A DNA stretch of 38,222 nucleotides from a virus. Shown here in pieces: positions 8,442 through 20,083 of the stretch. A program made the position numbers and the translations under genes. The stretch spans positions 1-38,222 of the IMG/VR virus record IMGVR_UViG_3300020347_000012; one strand, written 5' to 3'. The stretch's first letter is position 1, and the number at the start of each line of letters is the position of its first letter. A model generated the notes under the pieces. It was given only the letters and a program-made list of their open reading frames with translations, was not told where the DNA came from and did not search any database.

Positions 8442-9173
8442 ATGTTTAAAGATATTACATTAGGAACTATATGGGTTGGAGAAGTCATAAATACAGGAGA
8501 CCCTTTACAACTTGGAAGAGTTAAGATAAAAGTATTCGGTAAATACGATGAACTTGAAGAAGAAGTTATTCCATGGGCAATTCCTTATAATCAACTTTCA
8601 TCAGGAACAGTTTATATACCAAAAGTAGGAGAAATTTGTAATGTTTTTTTCGAAAACGGAGATGAAAATATTCCTTTCTTTATGGGAATATCTAAAACAA
8701 ATGATGACCTTTTAGGTGAATATGCCGAAGATTATCCAAAAGTTTGGTCAATAGTTTATGACAAAAGAGCCGGAGAAGATGCAACAGGAGAAGTATCCGA
8801 TGAAAGAACACTTGAAATATTTTATACAGAAACACAAGGATTAATTATTAGAAAAAATGATTCTTTTATTCAATTCAAAAATGAAGACGAAAGCATTTTA
8901 CTTACCAATGGTTCAACAGGAAAAGTTGTTCATATTTCAGATGATGGAATTAGTTTAGGTACAGAAGGAACAAGTTTAGAGCCAGCAGTTTTGGGAGATA
9001 CTTTAGAAAAACTACTTACTGAATTGATAAATGAAATAGGTCTTTTAGTAATACCTACACCAGCAGGACCCGCACCCGTAAGTAGTGCACCAAATTGGTC
9101 AAAGATACAAGGACTTAATCAAAAATGGGTAGATTTTAAATCCTTATTAGTAACCTTAGATAAAGAAAAATAA
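8442..9173 (+). CDS. Baseplate central spike, gp5-type OB-fold, no lysozyme domain
   Basis: Residues 1-85 match the OB-fold of gp5/gpV spikes: GTIWVGEVINTGDPLQLGRV, IPWAIPY, then GTVYIPKVGEICNVFFENGD and IPFFMG. Residues about 125-178 alternate as short beta strands (GLIIRKNDSFIQFKNED, GKVVHISDDGISLGTEG) followed by EPAVLGDTLEKLLTELI, a segment seen in gp5 proteins of T4-related phages. T4 gp5 has a lysozyme domain and a long beta-helix; here neither is present in 243 aa, so cell-wall digestion during entry must come from elsewhere or be absent. The C-terminus is Pro/Ala-rich (PTPAGPAPVSSAP), then helical. Confidence 0.75.
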   Translation: MFKDITLGTIWVGEVINTGDPLQLGRVKIKVFGKYDELEEEVIPWAIPYNQLSSGTVYIPKVGEICNVFFENGDENIPFFMGISKTNDDLLGEYAEDYPKVWSIVYDKRAGEDATGEVSDERTLEIFYTETQGLIIRKNDSFIQFKNEDESILLTNGSTGKVVHISDDGISLGTEGTSLEPAVLGDTLEKLLTELINEIGLLVIPTPAGPAPVSSAPNWSKIQGLNQKWVDFKSLLVTLDKEK

Positions 9174-9753: not shown

Positions 9754-10872
9754 ATGAATGAGCAAAGAGTAACCTATGGTGACCCAACAAATATTTCTGT
9801 ATTTGAACAAACATCAAAAAAACCAACATTATTAGAAAACGGCAAACTACTTTCAAATGAATCATATGCCGAAGAAATGTTAAACCTTTATAACGAATCT
9901 TTTAACAAACTACCTAAAAATCTTAAATATGAAATTGGACAAACTATTGTAGGTACAATTTCACAAATTTCTAAAACTGATATACTATTAGACATTGGTT
10001 CAAAAGACTTTGCTTACATTTCATTAGAAAAAGACAAATTAAATCCAGAATCTTATAAAATAGGAGAAGAAGTTGAAGCTTCTATTGTCGATACTAAAGA
10101 TTATTTAAAAGCTAGCATTGTAGAATTCATAAAAACGAATTTATACAATGAAATGAAATATTCAGAAGAAGAAATTGTATATGATGCAGAGGTTTTAAGT
10201 TTAACAGAAAATGGATACGTTCTTAACATAGAAGGTGTTCAAGTATTTATGCCCGGTAGTTTAGGTGGAATAAACAAATTATTAGATTTTCAAACTTTAA
10301 TAGGTAAAACAATAAAAGTTATGCCAATTAAAAATGAAAATATGTATTCTAAATTTAAAGACCAATTAATTGTTTCCCATAGAGCATACTTAGAAACTTT
10401 AATTCCGTCCGAAATAGAAAAATTAGAAATAGGTGCAGTTTATACAGGAACTATAACAGGAACTAAACCTTTTGGTGTTTTTATAGAATTTAATAATGTT
10501 TTAACCGGAATGATTCACAAAGATGATTACGATGAAGTTCTACTTGAACATCTCAGTAAAGGGGAAGTTGTTCCTGGAAAAGAAATTGATTTTTATTTAA
10601 AAGAAATTGTTACCAATAGAAAAATAATTTTATCTAGGTTAGTAGTTGACCCAAATGAAATTGCAAAACCTAAATTTGAAAAAGGAGATGTTGTTGAAGG
10701 TAGAGTTGTTAAGACTGTAAAATATGGTAGTTTTATTTCTTTAGGTAAAAATGCAACCGGATTGCTTCACGTAAGTAAACTAAAAGATGGTATAGAATTA
10801 AAAAAAGGAGATAGACACAACGTAAAAATACTTGACAATAAAGATAACAAATACGTTTTAGAATTAACTTAA
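9754..10872 (+). CDS. Ribosomal protein S1-like RNA-binding protein with four S1 domains
   Basis: The 372-aa product has a 60-residue N-terminal extension and then four S1-type OB-fold repeats at about residues 60-127, 143-215, 226-298 and 309-371. Repeats 3 and 4 are textbook: GAVYTGTITGTKPFGVFIEF...TGMIHKDD, and GDVVEGRVVKTVKYGSFISL...TGLLHVSKL. Cellular bS1 of Bacteroidota normally has about six repeats and is longer, so this is a reduced, probably phage-adapted form. S1 binds mRNA at the ribosome and promotes initiation; homologues are reported in some very large phages. It sits between structural genes, with a late-promoter-like motif before it and a hairpin terminator after it, so it is probably made late as its own unit. 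An RNA-binding or anti-termination role other than initiation is also possible. Confidence 0.88.
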   Translation: MNEQRVTYGDPTNISVFEQTSKKPTLLENGKLLSNESYAEEMLNLYNESFNKLPKNLKYEIGQTIVGTISQISKTDILLDIGSKDFAYISLEKDKLNPESYKIGEEVEASIVDTKDYLKASIVEFIKTNLYNEMKYSEEEIVYDAEVLSLTENGYVLNIEGVQVFMPGSLGGINKLLDFQTLIGKTIKVMPIKNENMYSKFKDQLIVSHRAYLETLIPSEIEKLEIGAVYTGTITGTKPFGVFIEFNNVLTGMIHKDDYDEVLLEHLSKGEVVPGKEIDFYLKEIVTNRKIILSRLVVDPNEIAKPKFEKGDVVEGRVVKTVKYGSFISLGKNATGLLHVSKLKDGIELKKGDRHNVKILDNKDNKYVLELT

Positions 10873-10897
10873 AATATAATTATCATAAAATCGTTAC

Positions 10898-10928
10898 AAA
10901 AGGCAATCGAAAATGGTTGCCTTTTTTT
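10898..10928 (+). terminator. Rho-independent terminator after the S1-like gene
   Basis: AAAAGGCAA (10898-10906) pairs perfectly with TTGCCTTTT (10917-10925) around a 10-nt loop, followed by a run of T. It ends the S1-like transcript. The next late-promoter-like motif begins at 10929, directly after the T run. Confidence 0.8.
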
Positions 10929-10937
10929 GATTAAATA
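10929..10937 (+). promoter_or_regulatory. GATTAAATA late-promoter-like motif before the amidoligase gene
   Basis: GATTAAATA begins at the last base of the terminator T run (TTTTTTTGATTAAATA) and ends 18 nt before the ATG of the amidoligase gene. Terminator followed at once by this motif is also seen at 20155-20196 and 26485-26524. Confidence 0.58.
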
Positions 10938-10955
10938 AGAAAACTAACGCATTTT

Positions 10956-12266
10956 ATGAACCAAGAAAGAGATATGGAATTACACAATACTAAAGTTGGT
11001 TTAGAAATTGAATTTGTAAGAAAACCTACCTTTAATTTAGGAGAAATTAAGAAACAATTTTCAAAACTTTTAAAGGTAAAAATTAATATAGAAAAGGAGC
11101 ATCATTCTGAATTCGTTCCTACCGATAACCACTATAAAATAGAACCGGACTTTTCTTTAGGAGACCATTCTGTTGAATTAGTAACCGGACCACTTGATTA
11201 TAATCACGCAAAAATAGTATTAATAAAAGTACTGAGGTGGATTAGAGAAACACCAGAAGTAAAAACCACTGATAGATGTGGTGTTCATTTGAATTTGAAT
11301 TTTCCTGATACTGATTACATACAGCAAATTGACATTCTTAATTTTATTTTGAATTTTGATGAAGAAGAAGTTTATAGTAGATTTCCTAAAAGGAGAGATA
11401 ATATATACACAAAATCAATAAAAGAAATAGTTCCATTACATAGTAACTTTGATTTCAAAACAATAAGTACTAATAGAACTAGTTTTGTTTATCCTATTAG
11501 CAAGTACTATGGTGTTAATTTTGAAAAGTTAAAAAGTAATTATTTAGAATTTAGATATATAGGTGGTAGAAAATACGAAGAACAACAATCTGATATCTTA
11601 TATCTTTTAGATTATTTTTTATTGAGCATCAAAGAATCTTACGAAAAAGACGATAGTGAAATAAAAGAAAAACTAATTAAATTATTAGAACCTAAGAAAA
11701 ATGTATTTTTGGCAGGACAAAATTATTTTAATTTCAACAATATATTCAAAAATATAGAATTCAAAGTAGATACCAGAAATGATGAAGAAACACTAAAATT
11801 ATTTTTTCCTTTGATGTGGAAAGATTTTTTTCCTATCCTTATTAGAATGAAAGAAGTTAAATTCAACATGAAAGGAATAATAAATTATGATACCGATAAT
11901 TCTTGTATTGAATTTGCTGGATTTATATTTAGAAAAACAATAGTAGAGAATCCTAGAATTCTTTTTTATAATTGTAGATTATTGAATGTTGTTATGATTC
12001 AAACACCCGTACACGATTGTGTAATATCTGGTTCGGATTTAGATAGATGCGAAACTGGTAATTCTAAATTCAAAGATAGTAGAATAAAAAATGGTAAAAA
12101 CACATATGCAGAATTTAAAAATTGTTATTTAGATGGTGTTGAAGTATTAGATTCCTATGTAGATGGTGGTATTTTTAGGAAAGGTTCATATTCTAATACC
12201 GAAATTACAGAAAATACTATTGTAATTGATAAAGATGTTGAAAACCTGGACGAAAAGGAAGATTAA
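10956..12266 (+). CDS. Predicted amidoligase (COOH-NH2 ligase, glutamine-synthetase-like) fused to a C-terminal beta-solenoid
   Basis: Residues about 14-20 read VGLEIEF. They are followed by EPDFSLGDHSVELVTGP (about 62-78), TTDRCGVHLNLNF (about 103-115) and YLEFRYIGG (about 194-202). These are the signature elements, in order, of the amidoligase_2 family described by Iyer and colleagues: GxExE, D-S...ElvsgP, cGxHxH-like, and ExR, which bind ATP, metal and the carboxylate substrate. The family is predicted to form amide or peptide bonds. The usual second His of the GxHxH element is Asn here (GVHLNL). Residues about 310-430 are a different domain with short repeating strands (FYNCRLLNVVMIQ, VISGSDLDRCETG, AEFKNCYLDGVEV), like pentapeptide or beta-solenoid proteins. 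It has its own promoter-like motif and runs on into the wedge genes 17 nt later. The substrate is unknown; a virion or cell-envelope target is inference. Confidence 0.75.
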   Translation: MNQERDMELHNTKVGLEIEFVRKPTFNLGEIKKQFSKLLKVKINIEKEHHSEFVPTDNHYKIEPDFSLGDHSVELVTGPLDYNHAKIVLIKVLRWIRETPEVKTTDRCGVHLNLNFPDTDYIQQIDILNFILNFDEEEVYSRFPKRRDNIYTKSIKEIVPLHSNFDFKTISTNRTSFVYPISKYYGVNFEKLKSNYLEFRYIGGRKYEEQQSDILYLLDYFLLSIKESYEKDDSEIKEKLIKLLEPKKNVFLAGQNYFNFNNIFKNIEFKVDTRNDEETLKLFFPLMWKDFFPILIRMKEVKFNMKGIINYDTDNSCIEFAGFIFRKTIVENPRILFYNCRLLNVVMIQTPVHDCVISGSDLDRCETGNSKFKDSRIKNGKNTYAEFKNCYLDGVEVLDSYVDGGIFRKGSYSNTEITENTIVIDKDVENLDEKED

Positions 12267-12283: not shown

Positions 12284-13057
12284 ATGACTAAACAAGAATT
12301 TTACGATGAACTTAATACAGCAATAACTGTTGGATGTAGTTTACCATTTTCTGTTCCAGAAAAAGCAATAGACAATTTAGTAAAATATTCAGCTCAATGG
12401 TTTCATAGAAATTGGGATGATGGTGTAGAAAATATTTACCTATCAATTCCAGCATCCGTATGGAGTACAAGTGAAGAATTTAAACAAACTAGGAAATTAA
12501 CATTACCCAAGTGTGTTTATTCAGTAAATGCAGTTGCAAAAGACCGGTCTTCAAAAAATAGAATGGGAGGTGGAAGTGCTGATTTTTCTTTTGATAAATA
12601 TATGAGTTCTAATTGGGGAGTGAATGGTGGAATGTCAGGAACCGAAGATTTGATGGGTACAGATGCTGTTTTAGGATACGTAATTGCATCTAGTTGGGGA
12701 GATTTGACCGACCTTATTTTAAAATACCCTATAACATATACATACAGTAGACAATCAAATAAATTATTTTTAAAAGGTTCTTTAGAGCATTCACCAGATT
12801 TTTTATTAGATTGCGAAGTAAGAGCACCTTTAGAATCGCTTTATAATTTAGATTTATTTTTTCATTATTGTTTAGGTCAAACTAAGATGCAACTTGCAAA
12901 TATATTAGGTACATTTTCTATGGACTTACCGGGAGGAGCTTCTATAAATTTTGATAGGTTTTATGACCAAGGAAAAGAAAGTGTAGATGAAGTAAAAGAA
13001 GAAGTTAAAAGTATGAGAGGAGGTAGTGATTTTATCTTTCATACTAATGGATTATAA
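12284..13057 (+). CDS. Conserved virion protein of unknown function, 257 aa (neck or baseplate)
   Basis: Recognisable elements include AQWFHRNWDDGVENIYLSIP (about residues 37-56), a hydrophobic patch around TLPKCVYSVNAV, and a C-terminal segment LGTFSMDLPGGASINFDRFY (about 205-224) followed by a charged helix. Similar proteins occur in the structural modules of other large phages, but I do not know an established name. It lies immediately before the gp25-like gene, so a role in the outer wedge, neck or tail terminus is possible. Its start is 17 nt after the amidoligase stop, so the two are probably co-transcribed. Confidence 0.6.
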   Translation: MTKQEFYDELNTAITVGCSLPFSVPEKAIDNLVKYSAQWFHRNWDDGVENIYLSIPASVWSTSEEFKQTRKLTLPKCVYSVNAVAKDRSSKNRMGGGSADFSFDKYMSSNWGVNGGMSGTEDLMGTDAVLGYVIASSWGDLTDLILKYPITYTYSRQSNKLFLKGSLEHSPDFLLDCEVRAPLESLYNLDLFFHYCLGQTKMQLANILGTFSMDLPGGASINFDRFYDQGKESVDEVKEEVKSMRGGSDFIFHTNGL

Positions 13058-13071
13058 AAATAAAGGAATAA

Positions 13072-13437
13072 ATGGGCGCAACCGATATATACATAAGAAG
13101 ACCACAACGTTCTTTATATAGTGAAAAAGATATAGAAATCAACGATATGTTAACTATGTTTTTGCAACAAATAGAAATGGTTTTATCAACACCACCTTCA
13201 ACAGTTTTAGGTAGAGCAGATTTCGGAGTTGGATTGCGTTCTTATTTATGGGATTTTAATGTAGGTGAAAGTGAATTAAAACAAGCTATAAATGAACAAA
13301 TAGGATTAAATTGCTCATTATCAGGGGAATTTAGTTATAAAATAGATGTTCAATTCTATGAAGTAGGTAATAGTGATTCTGCAATTATTGATATAACCGT
13401 AGAAGATGACAATTTAGTTAGAATGGTCATCAATTAA
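13072..13437 (+). CDS. Baseplate wedge protein, gp25/gpW-type
   Basis: The 121-aa length matches T4 gp25 and P2 gpW. Residues about 38-63 contain LSTPPSTVLGRADFGVGLRS followed by YLWDF, the diagnostic 'ilTpkGerv..pdfG..l...lfe' region of the family. The flanking amphipathic N-terminal helix (INDMLTMFLQQIEMVL) and a final beta strand also fit. gp25 is the central wedge organiser that nucleates sheath contraction. It is followed by a gp6/J-like gene, the standard gp25-gp6 neighbour pair of contractile tails. A weak AAGGA lies upstream of the ATG. Confidence 0.85.
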   Translation: MGATDIYIRRPQRSLYSEKDIEINDMLTMFLQQIEMVLSTPPSTVLGRADFGVGLRSYLWDFNVGESELKQAINEQIGLNCSLSGEFSYKIDVQFYEVGNSDSAIIDITVEDDNLVRMVIN

Positions 13438-13459: not shown

Positions 13460-15268
13460 ATGTCAAAGAAAGCAAAAGACCAAGTTAATAAGATTATAGA
13501 CAAAAGTAGACTGTTTGATGGTCAATTAAAAGAGCAAATAGAACTATACTTAATCAAGGAATATGAAAAAAGAGATTTAAACTTTTCTCCTTCAAGTCCG
13601 TATGGTCAAATTATTGATGTACTTAACGAATTAAACAAATTACAATACTTTTATTTAGAGGATTCTTTAAATGAAAGAAATCTTTTAACAGCATTCAAAG
13701 AAAATTCTATTTTAGGATTATCAAGATTAACGGGTCACAACCCCAGTAGACCGGTTAGTGCAAAAGGTGAATTATCATTAAAGATAAAACCTGGAATGGC
13801 AAATGAAATACCAGGCGCTAATATACAAATTCAAAATTACAGTAAAATATTGTGTAAAAACAATCAAAAAAATTATGTAATCATTTTAGATTCAGATTCT
13901 GTTTATATACCTAAAACAAGTTCAAAACTATTTAAGTTTCAAGTTGTTGAAGGAGAATTGAACACTTCAAATTTTACAGGGGACAATACTGATTTACAAT
14001 CTTTTAATATTCCGACTAGATTTGCACAAATAGAAAATGATATAATTACTGTTTTAGTAAATGGTCAAGAATTTAAAAATTTCGAATCTCTTTATGATAT
14101 TAAGAAAAACGAAAAAGGGGTAATAATAAAAACAGGAATTAATGGTGGGGTTGATATATATTTTGGCAATAAAGATTATGGTTATATACCAGATTCTGGA
14201 GAAAAAATCCAAGTGGAGTGGATTGCTTCAAATGGTTCGGGTGGTAATATTGGGGAATCATCATCTTCTATTTTGCTTGAATTTGTCGATGAGGTTTCTG
14301 ATGGATTTGGTGGTGAGTTGGATTTGAATGAAATTTTCGATATTAGCGTATCTAAGAAAATAACAATGGGTGCTGATGCAGAAGATAAAGAACTTACAAG
14401 ATTTTTACTTAATAAAAATAGTAGAGGATTAGTTCTTGCAAATCCTACAAATTATACAGCATTCTTATCTAAATATAATCAATTTAGTTATATTGATGCA
14501 TTCAATACCTTTGGAGATGAATATTTAGATGATGATAATATAGTTTATCTTTTCTTGTTACCAGATATCACTAGAAAGGTACAAAGTAATTCTGATTACT
14601 TTAGTACCGATATTAACAACTTCTATCTTTCTAAAGAAGATAAAGATGCTGTTTATGATGTAATCAACAAAAGTGGTAGACAATTAATTTCAACAGAATT
14701 AGAAATAATTGACCCAGTTATTACAAATTATGCATTGAATGTTTTCATTAGAGTTTACGATGACATTATTAGTGAAGATACTATAAAAGCAGAAATAACA
14801 AATGCATTAGGAGAATACTTTTTATCTTTACAAAGAAGGGATAAAATACCTCGTTCAGATATTATTAAAATGATGGAAAAGATTGATGGTATTGATTCAG
14901 TTTATGTTGATTTTATTTCTAAGGCCAACGAAGAAGCTATTTTTAATGGTTATTATTTCAAGAAAATTGATTATAATAACACAGATGCAACTAGTGCTTT
15001 AATAGAAGCAGTTAGAAAAAATAATGATGTACCTAACTTAAATGCAAGTAATTCAATAGAAACAACTGAAAAAATTACTCTTAAATCAGGAGAAAATCCG
15101 AATTTAGGTTTAGATGAATTCGGTGACATTACAATAGGAAACAAAGAATTGCCAATTATTAGAGGTGGATTTACTGACAGGAACGGTGTTGAATACGCTG
15201 ATGGAATAAATGGGACTAATTTATCGGCACTAAATATTGTAATTAGAGAATCTATACCGAGAAAATAA
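13460..15268 (+). CDS. Baseplate wedge protein, gp6/baseplate-J-type
   Basis: The 602-aa protein has the two-ended layout of gp6/J wedge proteins. The N-terminal helical part (about residues 42-100) includes SPYGQIIDVLNELNKLQYFY and LGLSRLTGHNPSRPVSAKGE, the element in which the first beta domain begins after a conserved helix-turn. The middle (about 110-290) is beta-rich and variable. The C-terminal part (about 400-490) contains YALNVFIRVYDDIISEDTIK and YFLSLQRRDKIPRSDIIKMM then IDGIDSVYVDF, typical of the baseplate J C-terminus. gp6 dimers form the iris ring around the hub. It lies directly after the gp25-like gene, as expected. T4 gp6 is about 660 aa. Confidence 0.8.
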   Translation: MSKKAKDQVNKIIDKSRLFDGQLKEQIELYLIKEYEKRDLNFSPSSPYGQIIDVLNELNKLQYFYLEDSLNERNLLTAFKENSILGLSRLTGHNPSRPVSAKGELSLKIKPGMANEIPGANIQIQNYSKILCKNNQKNYVIILDSDSVYIPKTSSKLFKFQVVEGELNTSNFTGDNTDLQSFNIPTRFAQIENDIITVLVNGQEFKNFESLYDIKKNEKGVIIKTGINGGVDIYFGNKDYGYIPDSGEKIQVEWIASNGSGGNIGESSSSILLEFVDEVSDGFGGELDLNEIFDISVSKKITMGADAEDKELTRFLLNKNSRGLVLANPTNYTAFLSKYNQFSYIDAFNTFGDEYLDDDNIVYLFLLPDITRKVQSNSDYFSTDINNFYLSKEDKDAVYDVINKSGRQLISTELEIIDPVITNYALNVFIRVYDDIISEDTIKAEITNALGEYFLSLQRRDKIPRSDIIKMMEKIDGIDSVYVDFISKANEEAIFNGYYFKKIDYNNTDATSALIEAVRKNNDVPNLNASNSIETTEKITLKSGENPNLGLDEFGDITIGNKELPIIRGGFTDRNGVEYADGINGTNLSALNIVIRESIPRK

Positions 15269-15505: not shown

Positions 15506-18500
15506 ATGTCAATTAAAAAAGAAAACTTACATTTCTTTAATAAAAAAGGAAACAACCTAAACTTATTTTATGATTCTGTTTCTGGATTGTACAGAGGAAA
15601 CTATGTTCTTAGTGAAAATGCCATTTCGGTAGATTTAATTGAATCGGAACAAATAATTATATTAGAAAAAGTTTATAGTGCAGAATATCAAAAATTTATG
15701 TACGTAAAACCTACGAATGTAGATAACGATGCACAAGAAATATTATTTGAAATAGATAAAACTTCAACAGACGAATTCTTTACGTTTGACATCACTTTAG
15801 ATGATAAAACATACTATATAGACAAAGGAACTAATCAGTCCGTAGAAGCGACCTATGATGCCTCATTTACGAATGTTTCAATAGCAGGGACTACCTATAC
15901 AAATATACCGAATTCTTTTGAAATAAACAAATTACAAGAGAACTATTCAACGGCAAATATAGGGTTTTCATCGAAAGTTGAAAATTCATTTGTAGGTAAA
16001 GTAAACATGTATTTCAAAACAGGGGCAACTAAAGTTCAGATAGGAGAATTATTTTTATTTGTAGATACAGTAGCGGAAGATACAAGATTACCCCTGATGT
16101 TAGAAACACTAGGACATACTTTGAATACCAAAGATTTCTTGATATTTGATTCTACGAATGTAAATGAAGAAGATATTGATTTTGCAATTGTTAACAAAAA
16201 AAGAAAAGAACTTTTACTTGAATTTCATAATATTTTTCCGTATCTTGGTTCATATAAAGCACTCATTAATATAATTAAATATTTCGGTTATGAATCGGTT
16301 GCCATAAAAGAGTATTGGAAAAATGTAAAAGTTGATTCAGCCAATTTTGGTAAACTAAGACCGGTTGATATAGAAAGTGTATTATTGAATTCTAATAATA
16401 CAAAAGAACTTTCTGACTTATTCCCATCAAAAGTATATTCAAAGACTAATAAATTTGGTATGTACTATCAAATCACAGAAGAAACTGGACAATATGATGA
16501 GGATGGTTTACCTATAACTAAAGAATCTTTCGAATTTACAATTGATGAAATATTAGTTAAATTATATGCACTTAAAGATAAGTTAAAGAAATATTTCTTA
16601 CCACTAAACAGTAGAATAATTGATATTGTAGGGGAAGCACTTTATTATACAAAGGTAGAATTGAATTATTGGAATTCAGTTAATAGAGTTGATGATGTAG
16701 ATATAAATATAAATCCGACCTTTGAAGTGTTTCCACGTAAACATGGATTCATAGAAGATTTGAGACCACTACAATGGTTAGGTGTAAAAATAAGCCCTGA
16801 CTTATTATTAGATGGTTCAGCAAATTTAAAAGTACGAGAATTTACTCTTACTAATTCATTTTTTCGAAATAAATTAAAAATATTTGATAGTGTTTCTGGA
16901 GTAGGTTTCGAAATAGAAGCTGACTATAAAAGTACAAATAAATCAAACGCACTAAAATTATACGAAGGTCTTATTAAATTAGGAGCACCTTTCGATGAAT
17001 TTTATATAACAGTAGATGACAATAAAATACTTTTTGTTGAAAAAGAAAATACTGGTGCCGTTTTAACATCTTATGTAGAACAAGGTGCATATGCATCATC
17101 TATACCTGTACTTTCTTTTCAAGATTACCTAAACGGAGCTCAACCAATAAGTACGTATCAAAAAGCATATTTACAATTCTTTTTTGATAGAGATTTTAAA
17201 TTGTCTGAATTAGACAATAATGAAAATATTCCTGTTGGATATCCTATAATTTTAAAAAATACAAGTTTTGATATTACTTGGTCAGATGCAAATCTTACTT
17301 GGAATAGTGTAGATGAAAAAAGAAATTACAATGATTTCAATTTTTCAAGTGCATCAGGATTTCCAACATCGGCATATAATAGTGGCGTTGACCCATTTAG
17401 TGGAGTTTCTTGGGATGATATAGGTAATGCTAATTTCTACGAAATACAATGGTATATTTACAAAGAAGCAAATTCAGTTTCACCTTTTTGGTCAAGTACT
17501 GTAAAAGGGTCACTATCTGATTTTAAAGAATGGGCGGTTAATTTACCTCATCCAGGAGATTATACGGTTGAATTGACTTTATTTGATATGTACGGTTCAT
17601 ATAGTAAAAATACTGAAATAAATCATATTACAGTTGAACAAAAGAATCCTAACTTTACGGCTTGGAAAATAAAAGATTTAAGTGATGTTAAATGGGATGA
17701 CTTAGAAGATTTAACTTGGGATGAAATGGGCAGTTCTTGGGAATTACCTTTCTTACCGAATACAAATACAGACGATGCTATTTTAGCATGGCATAGTATA
17801 GATAGAGTAGAATTTTATCAAAACTTAGTTAAACAAAATGCTGTTTTACGAAGTAAAGGAGATATAAATTCAAAAACTTGGAAAAACATTGGAGATAATG
17901 TTACTTGGGATGATGTTGACCACTTATATTGGGATGATTTAAGTAGTACTTATACTAAATTCTATATCAAAGATTTGAATTTATTAAGTGCTGGAAATGA
18001 TATTACAGTAAAAGATAGTGCTGGAAACACATTAGAAAATTGGAGTGAATTTACATTGAATCTGACGGGAAATAAATACGTTGATTTAGTTCAACAATTA
18101 AGTTCTTTAAGTGAAACTACAAATCCTATTTTATCAAGTTTTATTTATGAATACAGACCAATAATAAAATACGGAGTTCCGACTATTCATCAAATAATTG
18201 CAGTATCTAAGAATTTTGAAAAACCTAAAAAATATTTCTTTAGTAGTTCTTCTATTAACGATATTTCAAATTTCAATACACCAATGAATGGATTCGGTGC
18301 TGTTGGTGATGCCGGTTCTAGTTTTGATATTTACGGATTCAATAATTTTTATGCAATAGGTGGAACAGGAGCTACAGACCAATCTATAACTATTGATAAT
18401 ATATCTTATACTATTCCATCAAGTATTCAAACTTTATCAGCATTGGCTACTGATTTGAATACGAATTCTCCATTTGATGAATGGGGATTTAATATAGTAC

Positions 18501-18928
18501 AATCTTATCAAGGTGCAACAGCACCATATAACGATGAAAAAATATTGGCATTTAAAAAATTGTTGTCGAGTAACGAAATTAATATTATTAAATACAATAA
18601 GGTTTATGGAACTAAATACGCAAGAAGCATTACAACTAATGCAACTTGGAATAGTTTAGATGTTCTTTACTATCAAAGAGATGTAAAGCCATTTACTCAA
18701 ATTTATTTTAATTACGACATTTCGTGGATGCCTGGATTTAAAAATCCTAAATGGAAAATAACGAAAGTTGGAACAGGAGAAGAAGTATTTAGTTGGTTGA
18801 ATAAATATATGGTATACCTTTTTACTGATGAAGGAGAATATAATATTTCTTTAGAATTAGAAGATACCAACGGAAATAAAAAAACTATAACAAAAAACGG
18901 ATTGATTAGAGTAAAATCATACGAATAA
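15506..18928 (+). CDS. Large baseplate wedge protein, gp7-like/tail-protein-I-like, 1140 aa
   Basis: It follows the gp6-like gene and has the size of T4 gp7 (1032 aa). Residues about 236-272 (ELLLEFHNIFPYLGSYKALI, then YFGYESVAIKEYW) resemble the P2 gpI / gp7 helical core that docks on gp6. Residues about 590-820 and 1048-1060 carry a degenerate W-D/N-D/S repeat: GVSWDDIG, VKWDDLEDLTWDEM, VTWDDVDHLYWDDL, ATWNSLDVLYY. Two PKD/Ig-like strand clusters are seen, at about 682-710 (GDYTVELTLFDMYGSY) and at the C-terminus (GEYNISLELEDTNGNK). The Ig-like domains point to exposure on the baseplate rim. The gp7 equivalence rests mainly on position, size and the helical core. Confidence 0.6.
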   Translation: MSIKKENLHFFNKKGNNLNLFYDSVSGLYRGNYVLSENAISVDLIESEQIIILEKVYSAEYQKFMYVKPTNVDNDAQEILFEIDKTSTDEFFTFDITLDDKTYYIDKGTNQSVEATYDASFTNVSIAGTTYTNIPNSFEINKLQENYSTANIGFSSKVENSFVGKVNMYFKTGATKVQIGELFLFVDTVAEDTRLPLMLETLGHTLNTKDFLIFDSTNVNEEDIDFAIVNKKRKELLLEFHNIFPYLGSYKALINIIKYFGYESVAIKEYWKNVKVDSANFGKLRPVDIESVLLNSNNTKELSDLFPSKVYSKTNKFGMYYQITEETGQYDEDGLPITKESFEFTIDEILVKLYALKDKLKKYFLPLNSRIIDIVGEALYYTKVELNYWNSVNRVDDVDININPTFEVFPRKHGFIEDLRPLQWLGVKISPDLLLDGSANLKVREFTLTNSFFRNKLKIFDSVSGVGFEIEADYKSTNKSNALKLYEGLIKLGAPFDEFYITVDDNKILFVEKENTGAVLTSYVEQGAYASSIPVLSFQDYLNGAQPISTYQKAYLQFFFDRDFKLSELDNNENIPVGYPIILKNTSFDITWSDANLTWNSVDEKRNYNDFNFSSASGFPTSAYNSGVDPFSGVSWDDIGNANFYEIQWYIYKEANSVSPFWSSTVKGSLSDFKEWAVNLPHPGDYTVELTLFDMYGSYSKNTEINHITVEQKNPNFTAWKIKDLSDVKWDDLEDLTWDEMGSSWELPFLPNTNTDDAILAWHSIDRVEFYQNLVKQNAVLRSKGDINSKTWKNIGDNVTWDDVDHLYWDDLSSTYTKFYIKDLNLLSAGNDITVKDSAGNTLENWSEFTLNLTGNKYVDLVQQLSSLSETTNPILSSFIYEYRPIIKYGVPTIHQIIAVSKNFEKPKKYFFSSSSINDISNFNTPMNGFGAVGDAGSSFDIYGFNNFYAIGGTGATDQSITIDNISYTIPSSIQTLSALATDLNTNSPFDEWGFNIVQSYQGATAPYNDEKILAFKKLLSSNEINIIKYNKVYGTKYARSITTNATWNSLDVLYYQRDVKPFTQIYFNYDISWMPGFKNPKWKITKVGTGEEVFSWLNKYMVYLFTDEGEYNISLELEDTNGNKKTITKNGLIRVKSYE

Positions 18929-19582: not shown

Positions 19583-20083
19583 ATGAAAAACTTAGAAGAA
19601 TTTACAAGTCTTAACGAAAGTGGATATAACCCTGAAAAGGAAAGACCTAAAAATAGAGAAGAAGCTATCGCTATTTTGGTAAAGTATTTTAATAAAGATG
19701 AAAGGTCTTATAATAATTCACCTACTAATAAGCAAACGGAGAAAAAATGGACTTATAATAAATTAAAAAATTACATAGCTGATTTACATAGTGGAAAAAC
19801 ATTCTATATAAAAGAAGAATTTACAGTAGATATAGGAGGTGGAATTGCTACATCAAATCCATTTTACGATGAATCTGGTAGACAGTATTCAGAAAAATTA
19901 TCTCCTAAAGCAATGAGAGCACTAAAAGGAACTGAATTAGGTAGAGCAATTCTTGCTTTTGAAGATATAGTAGATGAATATATAAATTGGAAACAATCAG
20001 CTCCAGGTGGAGAAGAAGATGATTACTTAGATGTAAGAATAAAAGGATTAAAAGATTCAATCAAATATCTTAATAGTATTTAA
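19583..20083 (+). CDS. Hypothetical protein, 166 aa
   Basis: The protein begins MKNLEEFTSLNESG, then a Lys/Glu-rich helical region, a Gly-rich turn (DIGGGIATSNPFYDESG, about residues 93-109) and further helices. I do not recognise it. It stands alone between a 111-nt upstream gap holding several promoter-like elements and a 135-nt downstream gap holding two hairpins, so it is probably a single-gene transcript with its own control. That isolation suggests a regulatory or accessory role, or a virion protein needed at a different level from its neighbours. Confidence 0.7.
   Translation: MKNLEEFTSLNESGYNPEKERPKNREEAIAILVKYFNKDERSYNNSPTNKQTEKKWTYNKLKNYIADLHSGKTFYIKEEFTVDIGGGIATSNPFYDESGRQYSEKLSPKAMRALKGTELGRAILAFEDIVDEYINWKQSAPGGEEDDYLDVRIKGLKDSIKYLNSI

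Follow-up and report, generated by a model that had tools for sequence, protein, structure and literature searches.

In the longer early RNAs of phage T4, the starts of genes e, soc, 49 and I-TevI are hidden by a hairpin, and the late transcripts of gene e begin within that hairpin (PMC3014915). Here we describe an amidoligase gene of another phage clade with a similar arrangement, namely a late-promoter-like box in a hairpin predicted to mask the start, a likeness drawn from folding and a match to the box. The leader differs from those of T4 e, soc, 49 and I-TevI in its box, which is TATATA or TTAAATAA, in the gene that it precedes and in the phage clade.

The enzyme belongs to the same Pfam family, Amidoligase_2, as proteins of Geobacillus phage GR1, Bacillus phage 035JT001, Arthrobacter phage Salgado, Pseudomonas phage PA11 and the LUZ24-like phages, with which it shares invariant G, D, S, E, H, R, N, E and R positions. 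Those proteins are ~250–390 aa long, lack the solenoid found here and retain a GxHxH element. Many classical phage amidoligase genes adjoin genes for GGACT, glutamine amidotransferase, ATP-grasp or COOH-NH2_lig proteins, and in the LUZ24-like phage UFV-P2 the amidoligase lies in the early region, whereas the gene described here lies in a late operon. Two jumbo phages carry proteins matched by our family profile, AUZ94978 of Agrobacterium phage Atu_ph07 (E 1.8e-18) and gp125 of Salicola phage SCTP-2 (E 2.0e-10). AUZ94978 has GxHxN, as in the present clade, and is encoded near portal and prohead genes, but both matches are limited to the ligase part (profile columns 23–266 and 34–271, respectively), and size, strand and context differ. 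Published ideas on phage amidoligases include cell-wall change with superinfection exclusion, or secondary metabolites, in phages that have partner enzymes, and a cell-envelope proposal for the phiEco32 amidoligase and glutamine amidotransferase is among those cited in PMC10580990.

Results

The window analysed here spans 38,222 bases and is a virus record of IMG/VR. A first-pass annotation, made from the letters alone, had proposed that one of its genes encodes an amidoligase fused to a beta-solenoid, based on VGLEIEF, D-F-S...VELVTGP, CGVHLNL and YLEFR elements occurring in that order. Every one of these motifs is found in a 436-aa ORF with the following features:

10956..12266, + strand: coding sequence, Amidoligase_2 domain plus pentapeptide-repeat-like solenoid; single ORF, 436 aa (Pfam; 88 copies alike)
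10986..11855, + strand: glutamine-synthetase-like amidoligase domain, residues ~11–300 (PF12224, AlphaFold2, Foldseek)
10998..11015, + strand: G15-x-E17-x-E19-F motif; G, E and E invariant in 44/44 members
11148..11192, + strand: D65-x-S67-x-G69...E74-L-V-T-G78-P79 motif; D65, S67, G69, E74 and G78 in 44/44
11280..11294, + strand: G-x-H111-x-N113 element (C-G-V-H111-L-N113); H111 in 44/44, N113 in 43/44
11544..11555, + strand: L-E198-F-R200 motif; E198 and R200 unchanged throughout the family and in each of the 12 phage amidoligases aligned
11874..12227, + strand: beta-solenoid, residues ~307–424 (AlphaFold2 strands; pentapeptide-repeat matches; N310, G405, R408 and G410 in 44/44)

The Pfam profile PF12224 (Amidoligase_2) matched residues 11–162 at E 1.4e-9 with 38.7 bits, over the curated cut-off of 22, and the concordant PHROG 7469 is labelled 'amidoligase enzyme'. 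At E ≤ 0.01, PF12224 was found in 24 of 39 family members. A full-length AlphaFold2 model built from these 39 members (mean pLDDT 88.4, pTM 0.81) has a mixed alpha/beta ligase portion up to approximately residue 300 followed by stacked short strands, so that the predicted division into a glutamine-synthetase-like part and a separate solenoid is seen in the model; the ligase domain modelled alone gave a pLDDT of 89.9. In Foldseek searches against the PDB, the whole protein retrieved pentapeptide-repeat proteins and glutamine synthetases, while for the ligase domain alone glutamine synthetases came top (prob 1.00, E 3.7e-5), with YbdK (1r8g) and gamma-glutamylcysteine synthetase lower down the list. 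The TM-scores of the ligase domain to glutamine synthetase are just 0.3–0.4 and the global superposition is weak, which backs the superfamily rather than any pocket in detail. The top match among predicted viral structures was a 439-aa uncultured phage protein aligned over its full length (TM 0.73), followed by numerous phage amidoligases. The 436-aa protein is a member of Amidoligase_2 with a glutamine-synthetase-like fold, and judging from its sequence it is probably active as an ATP-dependent amide ligase.

Relatives of the fusion are encoded in at least 485 stretches found in IMG/VR scans. The two-part layout is retained in all 88 gene copies examined, a set that takes in the window gene and its re-fetched copy, with lengths of 429–471 aa. 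When conservation was scored over 44 non-redundant members, G15, E17, E19, K61, D65, S67, G69, E74, G78, H111, R146, K153, K156, K183-Y-Y-G186, N188, E198, R200 and G203 were invariant, as were N310, G405, R408 and G410 in the solenoid and linker. The G, D, S, E, H, R, N, E and R positions stayed invariant upon alignment with 9 other phage amidoligases. Sequencing error, a pseudogene and chance motifs were considered as explanations and are rejected by the 88 gene copies and the invariant residues.

Attention had been drawn at the outset to the replacement of the second His of the GxHxH element by Asn. This replacement is fixed clade-wide, with N113 in 43/44 members and Ser in the remaining one, and the first His (H111) is present in 44/44. 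The second His was found in 8/8 classical phage amidoligases aligned, and is Asn in Atu_ph07; it is a common feature of classical Amidoligase_2 members and no strict definition of them. As GxHxN also occurs in Atu_ph07, we regard it as a clade variant of Amidoligase_2 rather than a ground for exclusion. A degenerate active site or local decay through the His-to-Asn change is rejected, since the change is clade-wide and the other core catalytic-type residues are all kept.

The C-terminal ~120 residues, described at first as short repeating strands, are modelled by AlphaFold2 as a pentapeptide-repeat-like right-handed beta-helix with short strands spaced by ~5 residues, edged by conserved I-N310-Y-D and G-G405-x-F-R408-x-G410 elements. 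Their match to pentapeptide-repeat proteins is weak by single sequence and clear by profile, the profile-to-PDB search returning MfpA/AlbG/Qnr and designed pentapeptide solenoids with a best E of 4.6e-8. The Pfam model PF13599 matched at E 1.9e-5, under its curated cut-off. MfpA, AlbG and QnrB1 are stand-alone gyrase-interacting proteins. The solenoid here has the same type of four-sided right-handed helix (profile, Foldseek), but it is short and fused to an enzyme. Its invariance across the family suggests a protein partner.

Turning to the surroundings of the gene, the first-pass annotation had placed it in an operon with gp25-, gp6- and gp7-like baseplate wedge genes. The neighbouring genes are:

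8442–9173: gp5-like spike gene (matches to several spike structures)
9754..10872, + strand: S1-domain RNA-binding protein gene, upstream neighbour (PF00575, E 2e-22)
12284..13057, + strand: gp13-like neck protein gene, next downstream after a 17-bp gap (9mkb, E 1.5e-4; phrog_211 head-tail adaptor, E 2.2e-10)
13072..13437, + strand: gp25-like baseplate wedge gene (phrog_43, E 0.0036; PF04965, E 0.038, below cut-off)
13460..15268, + strand: gp6-like baseplate wedge gene (phrog_219, E 2.7e-30; solved gp6 9f4a, E 9.3e-6)
15506..18928, + strand: gene for a 1140-aa protein in gp7 position (phrog_28177, of unknown function, E 5e-36)

The gp25 and gp6 assignments hold. The name gp7 gains no support, as the 15506–18928 product had no significant profile match to solved gp7 or any other solved structure, and the gene directly next to the amidoligase is the gp13-like one, called by its profile match to the solved T4-type gp13, 9mkb. 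We counted synteny over 82 IMG/VR loci, the window among them. The proposed gene order recurs throughout: the gp13-like gene lies directly downstream of the amidoligase in 82/82 loci, gp25 is at most four genes downstream in 78/79 and gp6 at most five genes downstream in 67/67, and an S1-domain gene lies within four genes upstream in 77/78. Gaps in the amidoligase-wedge operon are mostly 1–17 bp. The amidoligase also co-varies in pairwise distance with its neighbours, with correlations of 0.945 for the gp13-like protein, 0.936 for gp6, 0.927 for S1 and 0.918 for gp25, at similar rates, which argues that the amidoligase was inherited as a core gene of its clade.

The synteny and the co-inheritance with structural genes are also what one would expect of a mainly structural or chaperone protein, in which the ligase fold had turned into a binding platform and the solenoid served as a spacer in the neck or baseplate. 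However, the core catalytic-type residues, needless for a pure scaffold, are all invariant, and the gene is out of the operon in most huge phages; we find such a role improbable.

Some loci depart from the common layout in other ways. Past the gp13-like gene, an ORF of ~400 aa is inserted in two separate lineages (L001, 15047–16252; L016, before the gp25 gene), and the L001 ORF has repeated (R/K)YGV(D)-type segments; these inserts could be homing endonucleases. The S1-domain gene of L012 is in two ORFs of 179 and 120 aa, and the gene in gp7 position is in two ORFs of 468 and 595 aa in L077 and L084, with frameshift, insertion or assembly error as possible causes.

Several unrelated proteins of these loci begin with a common N-terminal peptide, M-K-(Y/H/N)-(I/L)-K-x-Y-x-x-F-(L/I/V)-N-E (L001 at 1766, 10916, 16591 and 20947; L002 at 13814; L004 at 9499; L005 at 11220; L015 at 12048; L016 at 10239), and in the window the 19583–20083 product starts with a peptide of this type, MKNLEEFTSLNES. 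By eye we take this peptide to resemble those that direct internal proteins of T4 to the capsid, and it may mark packaged internal proteins. A targeting sequence is described in PMC3012670. The amidoligase itself was considered as a capsid-targeted internal protein and rejected, because N-termini in the window clade lack a targeting-like peptide.

Next, we analysed the leader of the amidoligase gene, which contains these elements:

10883..10896, + strand: 5' arm of a start-codon-sequestering hairpin (folding of the read-through RNA)
10898..10925, + strand: intrinsic-terminator-like hairpin in the spacer between the S1 gene and the amidoligase gene
10931..10938, + strand: TTAAATAA box, candidate late promoter, placed by eye; TATATA in most relatives
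10945..10959, + strand: 3' arm of the hairpin, including the AUG at 10956–10958; unpaired in a transcript starting past the box

Given the terminator-like hairpin at 10898–10925, with comparable ones in L008, L010, L012, L014, L015, L016, L026 and L058, the amidoligase gene probably begins its own unit rather than continuing that of the S1 gene. The read-through RNA of the window (10873–10961) folds at -22.2 kcal/mol, a value that includes the contribution of the nested terminator hairpin, with a z of -4.67 and none of 200 shuffles as stable, and the AUG lies within the stem. An RNA beginning at 10940, past TTAAATAA, is unstructured (-0.4 kcal/mol, z 0.64).

The same pattern is seen across the family. 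TATATA occurs in 79% of amidoligase family leaders, and among gene families with at least 10 leaders the amidoligase leader alone shows consistent structure (mean z -2.8, 76% below -2); the S1 leader has a mean z of +0.5 despite a box about as frequent. Using dinucleotide shuffles, we found the box enclosed by at least 7 pairs, with the 3' arm reaching the start, in 25/26 TATATA-bearing amidoligase leaders (mean z -2.47), compared with 6/24 for S1 (z +0.45) and 5/14 for gp25 (z -0.46). The 3634-type gene has an enclosing stem in 7/10 leaders, with weaker folds (mean z -1.2). As the leaders are mutually related, these counts are descriptive and not independent trials. Because the box and the arms lie at different places in different lineages, we compared the arms pair by pair: there are 22 distinct 5' arms among the 25 leaders, every one complementary to its own 3' arm. 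Arm sequences that diverge yet stay complementary point to pairing rather than to a protein-binding site.

A TATATA box inside the start-codon hairpin of amidoligase leaders is new in the present analysis. Outside the amidoligase family, TATATA is present in 62–75% of S1, gp25 and 3634-type leaders versus 0–27% in most other families with at least 10 leaders, which suggests that it is a common late-promoter motif of the clade. A sigma-70 promoter scan gave no more matches than in shuffles. We infer that the TTAAATAA/TATATA box acts as a late promoter, and the leader as a whole looks like a late-expression gate on the amidoligase gene. Late synthesis had initially been deduced from the operon; the box in a start-hiding hairpin, and the folds of window and family leaders, lend it independent support.

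The S1 gene upstream raises another reading, namely that the ligase would take part in host takeover together with the S1-domain protein, joining amino acids to a ribosomal or translation protein in a RimK-like manner that would favour late phage mRNAs. Beyond its place upstream in 77/78 loci and the distance correlation of 0.927, the S1 gene is present in 4/4 huge phages tested with the fusion and missing from 5/6 relatives without it, the exception being Lak-B6 (records W03, which is Lak-B6, W07 and W10–W12 were examined). This co-occurrence possibly reflects a functional link, or else ancestral linkage. Against a joint role, Lak-B6 has S1 without the enzyme, a terminator separates the two genes in the window, they are unlinked in 3 of the 4 huge phages, and the leader would bar expression early, when takeover would be most useful. 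We therefore rate it as quite unlikely.

Lastly, we examined the distribution of the fusion and of partner enzymes. Homologues in bacteria were limited to two among ~85,000 species genomes (L103, L104), both in metagenome-assembled genomes on contigs under 6 kb, and these are likely misbinned phage fragments. Huge phages of ~460–735 kb carry the fusion, in most cases away from the wedge genes; LR756500 is an exception, with the fusion near a gp13-like gene. By profile, the amidoligase is absent from the cultured T4-like phages PTm1, PAU, pT24, MaF61 and MA9V-2 and from Lak-B6, each of which encodes homologues of gp13 and gp6. The T4-like tail programme has thus gained the enzyme in a lineage-specific way, and tails of this kind can generally do without it. 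In Lak-B6 (W03), the gp13 homologue at 262821–263540 has 7 TAG codons read through. Lak phages have TAG reassigned, and the 7 codons are consistent with this. Relatives by gp6 include T4-like phages infecting Bacteroidota (Tenacibaculum PTm1, PTm5 and pT24, Chryseobacterium MA9V, Flavobacterium MaF61 and Prevotella Lak) as well as PAU, whose recorded host is Sphingomonas. The fusion belongs to a large family of uncultured T4-like phages, probably infecting Bacteroidota, in which its gene opens the tail-assembly operon.

The partner search covered three families on contigs that may be incomplete, with phages PA11, Salgado, GR1 and RHph_N3_19 as positive controls. Class II glutamine amidotransferase and COOH-NH2_lig (PF13522, PF14395) were found in 0/9 relatives. 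GGACT (PF06094) was absent from five marine contigs (123–176 kb) and from LR756500, and was found in 2/4 huge phages.

These results bear on two further readings. In the first, the enzyme would be a cell-envelope modifier, acting late in infection on the stem peptides of peptidoglycan or on some other polymer of the host surface, with superinfection exclusion or lysis timing as the outcome, and its place in the operon would merely secure late expression. Precedent for this comes from the phiEco32 proposal as cited in PMC10580990; moreover, the gate resembles that of the T4 lysozyme gene e, a product not to be made early, and the cultured relatives by gp6 have mostly Bacteroidota hosts. We nevertheless consider it unlikely, because the partner enzymes were missing (class II glutamine amidotransferase and COOH-NH2_lig from all 9 relatives, GGACT from every marine one) and because the invariant solenoid hints at a protein partner. 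In the second, the enzyme would be a small-molecule ligase forming a gamma-glutamyl or other amide metabolite, unconnected with virion proteins. Its Foldseek neighbours, glutamine synthetase and YbdK, with gamma-glutamylcysteine synthetase further down, would fit, as would GGACT in 2/4 huge phages, but the conserved docking-like solenoid and the strict late-operon tie would be left unexplained, and the marine contigs lack GGACT; this, too, seems to us a rather poor prospect.

Discussion

The interpretation that we prefer, though tentatively and at somewhat less than even confidence, is that the gene encodes a soluble, active amide ligase that is late-gated, docked by its solenoid and acting on a late phage protein. 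It joins what was computed (family, active-site-type residues, fused solenoid, synteny, co-inheritance and leader fold) to a catalytic activity, docking, promoter use and substrate that would go with it. RNAs reading in from upstream would be terminated, have their start codon folded away, or both, so that no early protein is made, while RNAs begun at the box inside the hairpin would lack the 5' arm and be translated late. The ligase domain would hold ATP and metal via the E/E/D/S/E/H/R set, activate a carboxylate and join it to an amine, with the pentapeptide-type solenoid acting as a rigid arm for docking, through which one specific protein would reach the active site. The least certain step is the target, which would be a phage protein made late, either encoded in the same operon, the simplest case, or assembled simultaneously; a virion protein would be a plausible substrate. 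The chemistry could then be addition of an amino acid or peptide, or an isopeptide link, in tail or neck maturation. The gene would have passed vertically with the neck-wedge operon of a Bacteroidota-type T4-like clade.

Several observations weigh against this preferred interpretation. The gene is apart from the wedge genes in most huge phages, and relatives with gp13 and gp6 homologues do without the enzyme. Late timing is equally consistent with cell-wall or host targets, T4 gene e itself encoding lysozyme, and Foldseek gives low TM-scores (0.3–0.4) against glutamine synthetase. In a search for substrates, neighbouring late proteins had no unusually conserved C-terminal tail. The more specific proposal, that the gated ligase makes a covalent change to a protein of the neck or baseplate in a widespread phage clade, with the solenoid setting substrate choice, is doubtful at present, if worth entertaining.

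Amidoligases are often catalogued among auxiliary metabolic genes whose use is unknown. In this clade, the amidoligase is tied to a late tail operon (82/82 loci), has its own docking-type domain, occurs without any of the partner enzymes that we looked for and is apparently late-gated. The late tie and the gating narrow the search for a substrate to proteins present late, and replace a vague annotation with an enzyme that can be tested. The leader would extend the timing control known from T4 gene e to a new gene in a distant phage group. Should modification of a neck or baseplate protein prove true, an amide-ligation step would be part of tail maturation in tailed phages.
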